DNA of 36,473 bases from Herbinix sp. (lineage in GTDB: Bacteria > Bacillota > Clostridia > Lachnospirales > Lachnospiraceae), in contig JAQZBA010000006.1 of the NCBI GenBank assembly GCA_029239365.1, positions 1-36,473 on the forward strand, read 5' to 3'. The notes under the pieces are model-generated. The model was not told the DNA's origin. It did no database searches and worked only from the letters and a program-made list of their open reading frames with translations. Positions 29,036 to 31,535 of this stretch are shown here, in pieces. The stretch's first letter is position 1. Every line of letters starts with the position of its first letter. A program made the translations under genes and the position numbers.

Positions 29036-29167
29036 ATTACTCCCTACCTTTCTATCTCTTATCATCTTATAATCAGGCTTATTGAGCCTTAATCAATGGC
29101 CAATTCCTTGTGCCCTCTGTTGTTATGAGTGTATTCCGGATGGGAAATTAATGCAATAGCATCGGAT

Positions 29168-29199
29168 GTAAGTTGCAATTATGAAAAGGTAAGTTGCAA
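29168..29199. promoter_or_regulatory. Candidate LytTR operator: direct repeats GTAAGTTGCAA
   Basis: GTAAGTTGCAA at 29168-29178 and again at 29189-29199: identical 11-mers with 21-bp start-to-start spacing, upstream of the ABC-LytTR-DUF3021 operon. Confidence 0.55.
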
Positions 29200-29285
29200 A
29201 AATACAGCTTAAGTGAACTCTCAAAACTACCTATAATTTGTAATTATCGTAAATTAGTGGTATCCATTTTCCACTATATCCTTTA

Positions 29286-29400
29286 TGATTAACATAGTGA
29301 GCATAATGCAAGCTTGCTTGTAAGTATGCGATCGGAGTGAACGATCATGAATACGCTCTATATTCATGATATAGTGATTAACGTAGTGAGCATACTGCAA
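29286..29400. repeat. Direct repeat pair flanking an inverted repeat
   Basis: TGATTAACATAGTGAGCATAATGCAA (29286-29311) and TGATTAACGTAGTGAGCATACTGCAA (29375-29400), 24/26 identical; between them ATCATGAATA...TATTCATGAT inverted repeat (about 29344-29370). Confidence 0.8.
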
Positions 29401-29448
29401 ATTAAAGTTTTCACCCATAAAAGTTGGATTCATAGGAGGGCGAGTCAC

Positions 29449-30021
29449 ATGAAAGTATTGTTGCTATTAGCCAAAGGCTTCGAAACAATGGAGTTTAGCG
29501 TCTTTGTTGATGTGTTGGGATGGGCCAGAAATGACTTTGGATGCCAGATAGAGGTTGATACCTGTGGTTTTCAGAAAGAAGTAATCAGTACCTTTCATAT
29601 TCCGGTACTCGTAGATAAGACTTTAGATGAAATCAATTGCCATGAATATGATGCGCTGGCTATTCCCGGTGGCTTCGAAGAATTCGGCTTCTATGAGGAC
29701 GCCTACGATGAACGGTTTCTCCATCTGATACGGGAATTTGACAGGCAGCATAAGATCATCGCTACCATCTGTGTTGCTGCCTTACCCTTGGGCAAAAGCG
29801 GAGTTCTAAAGAACCGACGGGCAACCACCTATCACCTGAGAGACGGCTACCGTCAAAAGCAATTAGCACAATTTCAAGTTGATGAACCTATCGTAATCGA
29901 TCATAATATTATCACCTCCTACTGTCCTCAGACAGCTCCTGACGTAGCCTTTCAGTTGTTGGAGATGTTAACCTCAACGGACCAGATGGAAGCTGTAAAG
30001 AAAGCGATGGGGTTTAAATGA
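29449..30021 (+). CDS. DJ-1/PfpI family protein
   Basis: 'MKVLLLLAKGFETMEFSVFVDVLGWAR...YDALAIPGGFEEFGFYEDAYDERFLHLIREFDRQHKIIATICVAALPLGKSGVLKNRRATTY'; start at ATG 29449 behind GGAGGG (ORF track 29347). Confidence 0.9.
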   Translation: MKVLLLLAKGFETMEFSVFVDVLGWARNDFGCQIEVDTCGFQKEVISTFHIPVLVDKTLDEINCHEYDALAIPGGFEEFGFYEDAYDERFLHLIREFDRQHKIIATICVAALPLGKSGVLKNRRATTYHLRDGYRQKQLAQFQVDEPIVIDHNIITSYCPQTAPDVAFQLLEMLTSTDQMEAVKKAMGFK

Positions 30022-30854
30022 CTATGAAGAATCTAATACGACTTACAGATTATTCAATTAATGATATAACTAATATCTTTACAATAGCAGATCGCATATC
30101 ACAAGGTGAATTCAAGGATTTCTTAACAGATAGTACGATATTATTATTCTTTCCTGCTGCGAGTATAAGAACAAGAGTAACCTTTGAAAAAGGAATTCAG
30201 CAACTGGGTGGAAATACGATTCTTTTTCCAAGTGACGCCTTGGACAAAAAGGAAGCTATTAAAGATGTCATCGGCTATCTTAATAATTGGGCCGATGGAA
30301 TTATTGTTCGACATAATGATATTACTAAGCTTGATGAAATGGCAAGGCATTCAACCGTTCCCGTGATTAATGCTATGACCGGCGTCAATCACCCCTGTGA
30401 GGTGCTATCTGATTTATATTCCTTGTCAAAACGAAGAACAGATTATCTGGAGGCAAAGTATTTATTTATCGGTGAAAAGGGAAATATCGGATTAGCCTGG
30501 CAGGAAGCCTCTAAAGTTCTTGGGTTTTCGTTAACACAAAGTTGCCCTGTAGGTTATGAAATGGATCATATCCCGGTAGAGTATGATATTCATAAAGCAG
30601 TTCAGGGTAAGGACATAATTCTAACAGATTCCCTAAGAAAAGAGATGATCAAAGACTTTAATAATTATCAGGTAACGCTTACTTTGCTTGATAAAGCCAA
30701 TCCCAATGTACTTTTTAATCCATGCCCTCCCTTCTTCCGAGGAGAAGAGGTAACAGATGAGGTAATACAAAGCGAATATTTTGTTGGTTATCAATTTAAG
30801 AGTACACTAATAGAGATTCAACAAGCAATTATTATTTATAATATGATGAGCTAA
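30018..30854 (+). CDS. Divergent aspartate/ornithine carbamoyltransferase superfamily protein
   Basis: 'SIRTRVTFEKGIQQLGGN' (SxRTR carbamoyl-phosphate motif), 'HPCEVLSDLYS' (HPCQ-like), 'LFNPCPPFFRGEEVTDEV' in place of HCLP/HPGPxNRG; overlaps the DJ-1 gene by ATGA. Confidence 0.8.
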   Translation: MTMKNLIRLTDYSINDITNIFTIADRISQGEFKDFLTDSTILLFFPAASIRTRVTFEKGIQQLGGNTILFPSDALDKKEAIKDVIGYLNNWADGIIVRHNDITKLDEMARHSTVPVINAMTGVNHPCEVLSDLYSLSKRRTDYLEAKYLFIGEKGNIGLAWQEASKVLGFSLTQSCPVGYEMDHIPVEYDIHKAVQGKDIILTDSLRKEMIKDFNNYQVTLTLLDKANPNVLFNPCPPFFRGEEVTDEVIQSEYFVGYQFKSTLIEIQQAIIIYNMMS

Positions 30855-30870
30855 TATATTGGAGGCTATT

Positions 30871-31383
30871 ATGAAATTAATCAGAACAATAACAGATCAA
30901 GATTTTCTTGCTTCCAACCTCATGTCAGAAGCCAAGCCAAGAGATACGGTAAGAACCTTATTATTTAATGAAGAAGGCAAAATAGCCGTGATGCATGTCT
31001 CCAGATACCAGCTCTATTCCTTTCCTGGCGGAGGTGTTGAATCAGGGGAAAGTCTAGAAGAGGCCCTTAAGAGAGAAATCCTTGAGGAAACCGGCTGTTG
31101 CTGCGAGATTATTCAGGAATTAGGGTATATCAAAGAAAACCGAGGACTCCTGGACTATACTCAACAGTCTTATTATTATGTCACCCAGAAACTCGGTGAA
31201 GCTCAGAAACCAATATTAACAATTACTGAGGTGAATAACGGAACCAGCTATGCTTGGTATGAGATAAACGAAGTAATGAATTTGCTTATGCTAACTGCAC
31301 ATGAAACCCTGCAGCAGAAATACTTACAGGCGAGAGATCTTGCAGCATTGGAGGAGTACCTTACTATTGTAAAAGGGAATTGA
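30871..31383 (+). CDS. Nudix hydrolase
   Basis: Nudix box 'GGGVESGESLEEALKREILEETGC'; start at ATG 30871 behind GGAGG (ORF track begins at TTG 30859). Confidence 0.9.
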   Translation: MKLIRTITDQDFLASNLMSEAKPRDTVRTLLFNEEGKIAVMHVSRYQLYSFPGGGVESGESLEEALKREILEETGCCCEIIQELGYIKENRGLLDYTQQSYYYVTQKLGEAQKPILTITEVNNGTSYAWYEINEVMNLLMLTAHETLQQKYLQARDLAALEEYLTIVKGN

Positions 31384-31432
31384 GCCTGTACCAAGAAGAT
31401 ATGGTATCTTCTTGGTACAGGCTCAATTCCCT
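31374..31432. repeat. Perfect 28-bp inverted repeat with 3-nt loop overlapping the Nudix stop codon
   Basis: AGGGAATTGAGCCTGTACCAAGAAGATA-TGG-TATCTTCTTGGTACAGGCTCAATTCCCT; no T-run directly after. Confidence 0.9.
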
Positions 31433-31535
31433 CTGTTATATAGAATCCATAATTATTTTTTGATTAGGGTCCTTGAGATTCAGACTGATGAATCAATTAA
31501 TATAAACCTAATCCTATTACTTCTATCCGTTAAAG

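Follow-up and report, generated by a model that had tools for sequence, protein, structure and literature searches.

Results

Genes and features of the locus

The window, i.e. the whole stretch of 36,473 nucleotides of Herbinix sp. DNA that was analysed, carries three closely packed genes within an inserted stretch. The features of this locus are as follows.

29449..30021, forward strand: DJ-1/PfpI family protein, 190 aa (Pfam DJ-1_PfpI, 4.3e-30)
30018..30854, forward strand: putative OTCase-like orphan transcarbamylase of the HPCE/PCPP clade, 278 aa (Pfam OTCace_N, 6.5e-32, and OTCace, 1.2e-13; clade motifs, tree and model)
30871..31383, forward strand: Nudix hydrolase, 170 aa, with a complete Nudix box, GGVESGESLEEALKREILEETGC (Pfam NUDIX, 5.3e-16)
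31374..31432, no strand assigned: 28-bp perfect inverted repeat with a 3-nt loop, a probable terminator common to the triplet and the convergent histidine kinase gene
29066..31535, no strand assigned: accessory insertion flanked by the ABC-transporter operon (to 29065) and the histidine kinase gene (from 31536), with no triplet there in the congeners read

The layout described in the sequence-only reading, three genes on one strand with an ATGA overlap and a short gap, is confirmed: the TGA of the DJ-1/PfpI gene (30019-30021) overlaps the carbamoyltransferase ATG at 30018 (4 bp, 30018-30021), and 16 bp separate the end of the carbamoyltransferase gene (30854) from the Nudix ATG at 30871. The start methionine conserved in the carbamoyltransferase clade is Met3 (30024) of the called protein, and therefore the true start may be 30024, which would leave a 2-bp gap in place of the overlap. 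Good ribosome-binding sites precede the first and third genes, AGGAGG before the DJ-1/PfpI ATG at 29449 and GGAGG before the Nudix ATG. A longer DJ-1/PfpI reading frame from 29347, taken from the mechanical ORF list, is not needed. The three genes are predicted to be co-transcribed; close packing on the same strand is commonplace in bacteria, and by itself is no proof of shared function. An Rfam scan upstream of the triplet for an RNA element returned no match. A 26-bp near-identical direct repeat lies just 5' of the DJ-1 gene, at 29286-29311 and 29375-29400 of the window, the two copies 89 bp apart.

None of the three proteins reaches any curated NCBIfam cut-off. The DJ-1/PfpI protein is well above the Pfam gathering score (105.1 against 26.6 bits), and its nearest NCBIfam model, TIGR01383, scores 98 bits, below the cut-off of 131. 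Comparison with DJ-1 places a Glu (in FETMEF) and a Cys (in ATICVAA) at the expected active-site positions, and both look intact. The Nudix protein matches the Nudix box pattern GX5EX7REUXEEXGU, and reached no cut-off in the NCBIfam scan.

The middle protein belongs to a separate transcarbamylase-fold clade

The fold and two-domain architecture of the transcarbamylase superfamily are evident both from Pfam and from a predicted structure (mean pLDDT 85.9; TM approximately 0.87 to OTCases), which was built from four sequences and is poorly modelled at residues 241-260 (pLDDT approximately 54-58). Matches were found to 85 PDB sequences, the best being OTCases (E approximately 1e-31, or approximately 1e-50 with a clade profile). 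The protein nevertheless reaches the cut-off in none of the curated models for OTCase, ATCase, PTCase or AOTCase that it matches. Its scores against NCBIfam cut-offs include 178 against 306, 156 against 281, 119 against 500 and 80 against 263 bits; for named models they are 156.2 against 280.85 bits (OTCase, TIGR00658), 75.7 against 236.95 bits (ATCase, TIGR00670) and 119.4 against 500 bits (PTCase, TIGR04384). We assembled a clade of 31 rows, thirty full-length sequences and one plasmid copy from Frondihabitans, and in a tree against 23 OTCase/ATCase rows it is held together with 100/100 support on a long stem. One additional member (L146) shares the motifs of the clade; below it, the first match (L147) is already a normal OTCase, which indicates a clean gap around the clade. 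L146 and L087 form a sub-branch in which HPCE and NPCPP are kept and the DKKE stretch of the 80's loop is absent. The earlier description of the gene as a divergent carbamoyltransferase is thus borne out, and more strongly than it was put; the possibility that the protein would turn out to be a normal OTCase or ATCase was examined and is contradicted by motifs, cut-offs and clade alike.

Active-site motifs of the clade

Transcarbamylases are defined by the motifs SxRT, HPxQ and HxLP, and Gln and Leu occupy the HPxQ and HxLP positions in all nine transcarbamylase types listed in Table 1 of PMC4581275. In the clade, the SxRT phosphate motif is present (R and T in 31/31 rows, S in 30/31), HPxQ is replaced by HPCE and HxLP by PCPP, each in all 31 rows, with the alignments setting HCLP against PCPP. 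The Gln, HCLP and the Arg are found in 21/21 OTCase reference rows. Every clade row has R51, T52, R53, R98, H125, E128, N156, D204, P235, C236, P237, P238, K261 and L264. In E. coli numbering, which is that of Table 1 of PMC4581275 and was placed via the OTCase rows rather than the E. coli sequence itself, the residues matching OTCase N167, D231 and C273 do not vary and the phosphate-binding residues are kept, while the R319 position is Leu with an invariant Lys three residues earlier. The DxxxSMG ornithine loop is deleted, the Asp alone being kept. Two normally invariant active-site motifs have changed in the same way across the clade.

The Gln-to-Glu change is the one recorded as a deficiency mutation, Q171E, in human OTCase, where R330 (the R319 equivalent) touches Q171 as well as the donor analogue's carbonyl oxygen, and Q171 also contacts E326 (PMC6098936). 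Taken together, the motif changes and these contacts indicate that the carbamoyl half of the donor pocket changed as a set and that the phosphate half stayed.

Neighbourhood, spread and origin

The sequence-only reading had taken the packing to imply coupled function, and had proposed a gene-neighbourhood search with the carbamoyltransferase as query. We compared 32 other loci, from three named genomes and 29 further genomes and including three broken or shortened copies, and found no recurring DJ-1/carbamoyltransferase/Nudix set; the partners of the carbamoyltransferase vary between genomes, and the triplet was found in this genome only, an outcome that the sequence-only reading had itself named as refuting its proposal. 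An adjacent DJ-1 gene was found at none of the 32 loci, the one weakly similar DJ-1 lying approximately 6 kb away (L026), and only at L027 does a Nudix gene adjoin, on the upstream side and with weak similarity (E 6e-6). Four other genomes of the family have DJ-1 relatives, 58-75% identical and set among unrelated neighbours; one (69%; L136:6855-7439, genome G547) sits between genes reading as panB and panC. For the Nudix protein, the nearest relative found shares 47% identity, and neither triplet partner adjoins it. A recurrent triplet is therefore ruled out over these loci, and a coupled pathway is not supported. Across the 32 loci, no carbamate kinase, deiminase or type of transporter emerged as a repeated neighbour of the gene. 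GNAT genes are enriched within two genes of the carbamoyltransferase (16/96, against 7/116 further off at the same loci; Fisher p 0.015), a modest signal from a common family. A literature search did not find HPCE together with carbamoyltransferase, and in the paper examined among those that name all triplet components, the mentions sit in unrelated places.

In the congeners read, the histidine kinase gene is followed by the flanking ABC-transporter genes or, where that operon is lacking, by the next conserved genes, and no triplet was seen at the junction. Two congeners carry a GNAT gene there (G004 and G012; L124:10503-10967 and L130:4492-4932), which indicates that this junction takes accessory genes. 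The triplet was found here only, as an inserted accessory block between the ABC-transporter operon and a two-component system.

Besides the window, the middle gene occurs in 21/396 genomes of the family, 6/390 of the class and 2/398 of the phylum. The middle protein of the triplet shares 67.5% identity with a copy in another family (G317), 62% with that of Sedimentibacter and 56% with the only congeneric copy found (G016); in the tree it groups with the G317 and Sedimentibacter copies (98/87 and 95/87). Since it is closer to copies of other families than to the congeneric one, the gene was probably acquired horizontally. Its GC3 is 0.30, compared with 0.47 for DJ-1, 0.40 for Nudix and 0.37-0.50 for the flanks, and the low GC3 and the tree grouping both fit a gene that arrived horizontally and came to lie next to two genes of different origin. 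Three genomes (L079, L080 and L081) have copies that are shortened, frame-broken or split, which suggests that the gene is dispensable. A clear clade member, 40% identical, lies on a plasmid of Frondihabitans (Actinomycetota; L140:5227-8045), where genes for a recombinase and an IS3 transposase flank it and its annotation is ornithine carbamoyltransferase; the next plasmid matches are at most approximately 32% identical. A viral origin was considered and rejected, as a scan of viral contigs contained no relative; the best phage matches listed are at most approximately 31% identical. Other OTCase/ATCase paralogs are present elsewhere in the same genome.

Discussion

The results of this analysis shift attention from the triplet to its middle gene, and it is this rare, roaming carbamoyltransferase-like group that merits study. 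We give roughly even weight for and against the following reading as a whole: the triplet is a one-off accessory unit whose middle gene, probably horizontal in origin, encodes an orphan transcarbamylase that transfers a carbamoyl group to a non-ornithine amine, with the DJ-1 and Nudix genes as separate cargo on the same transcript. The chemistry, donor, direction and role of the middle enzyme are what we infer from its conserved residues. The catalytic residues that are conserved indicate an enzyme, and one that probably binds an acyl-phosphate donor, probably carbamoyl phosphate. In the proposed mechanism, S49-x-R51-T52-R53, R98 and H125 would hold the phosphate of the donor, most likely carbamoyl phosphate, and the carbamoyl side would be handled by a rebuilt pocket where E128 replaces Gln, P235-C236-P237-P238 replaces HCLP, L264 replaces R319 and K261 is invariant. 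The amine, held by N156, D204 and C236 without an SMG lid, would then attack the donor carbon and yield a ureido product. The loss of the SMG loop argues against ornithine, and the amine is probably neither ornithine nor aspartate; the simplest reading would be carbamoyl transfer to an amine, with a predicted non-ornithine acceptor. The other paralogs argue against a housekeeping role, and the patchy spread, the GNAT-rich surroundings, the plasmid copy with its recombinase and IS3 transposase neighbours, and the broken copies point to a dispensable accessory function, possibly the occasional modification or detoxification of a small molecule.

Carbamoyl phosphate may not be the donor, because in human OTCase the same replacement of Gln by Glu is linked to disease (Q171E, PMC6098936). 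On this alternative, the clade would have kept the phosphate half of the pocket, rebuilt the carbamoyl half and come to move the group of another acyl or amidino phosphate to an amine, a reaction new to the fold. The joint fixation of E128, P237 and L264 with a retained phosphate site (31/31 rows, Ser in 30), the replacement together of the carbamoyl contacts (Gln, the Leu of HxLP and R319), and the contacts of Q171 with E326 and R330 and of R330 with the carbonyl oxygen in the human enzyme (PMC6098936) speak for such a change of donor. Glu is, however, still able to accept hydrogen bonds from the carbamoyl NH2, the main-chain oxygens of PCPP may stand in for the HCLP ones, the clade retains C236 and the proline P238, and ATCases work without R319 (PMC4581275), so that we regard both another donor and the new reaction that it would entail as unlikely, if worth keeping in view. 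A catabolic direction, in which a ureido compound and phosphate would give carbamoyl phosphate for ATP as in PTCase or oxamic transcarbamylase, has known precedents in the same fold family (PMC4581275), and the genome contains carbamate kinase-like sequence, in fragments that score under the curated cut-off; the absence of any recurring carbamate kinase, deiminase or transporter type beside the gene at 32 loci makes this direction improbable.

That the three genes make up a functional metabolite-repair or modified-nucleotide pathway draws on their tight packing, the ATGA overlap and the probable terminator 3' of the third gene, and on the occurrence of damage-control enzymes among DJ-1 and Nudix families. 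The triplet, however, is not recurrent, DJ-1 relatives lie elsewhere and GC3 differs among the three genes (0.47, 0.30 and 0.40), and we consider such a pathway quite improbable. It would be very surprising if the middle protein had no catalytic role and bound phosphate or an acyl phosphate as a sensor or scaffold: two of the three family-defining motifs are altered, but the Arg, Thr, His, Asp and Cys with roles in OTCase are invariant over deep divergence. An ordinary OTCase or ATCase of unusual sequence can be set aside almost entirely, as the protein matches OTCase families but is without DxxxSMG, HPxQ, HxLP and R319, scores below all cut-offs, belongs to a separate clade and has other paralogs elsewhere in the genome.

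The result argues against a DJ-1/carbamoyltransferase/Nudix pathway, and the plasmid copy illustrates that clade proteins can be misnamed. The clade carries, as a fixed change, a recorded human OTCase disease mutation. If active, it would show how the most conserved donor pocket of the fold can be rebuilt, and its substrate would be a new carbamoylated or otherwise acylated small molecule.

Comparison with known transcarbamylases

The middle protein shares with OTCase (ArgF/ArcB) the fold, the two Pfam domains, SxRTR, R106, HP, N167, D231, C273 and the Pro of HCLP; it differs in having HPCE for HPxQ and PCPP for HCLP, in being without the SMG loop, in the loss of R319 and of the K53 and Q82 equivalents, and in its length of 278 aa, compared with approximately 300-340 in OTCase. 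With PTCase it has in common a phosphate site of the carbamoyl-phosphate type and a place on the OTCase branch, but it scores 119 bits against the cut-off of 500, its HPxQ and HxLP motifs are changed and no agmatine-pathway neighbours were seen. The DPTCase and DBTCase enzymes, acting on 2,3-diaminopropionate and 2,4-diaminobutyrate, also belong to the OTCase branch and have an altered HxLP and second-substrate loop (PMC4581275), but their HPxQ Gln is retained and their HxLP motif reads HDLP, with Leu, and no biosynthetic cluster was seen at the present locus. Unlike the clade, the knotted transcarbamylase YgeW has both the HPxQ Gln and the HxLP Leu, and only 1/27 clade members matched its model, and that weakly. 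YgeW and the 'UTC' clades (PMC514541) are nevertheless similar in being orphans of the transcarbamylase fold with an unassigned second substrate, and the UTC clades of 2004 may include the HPCE/PCPP clade.
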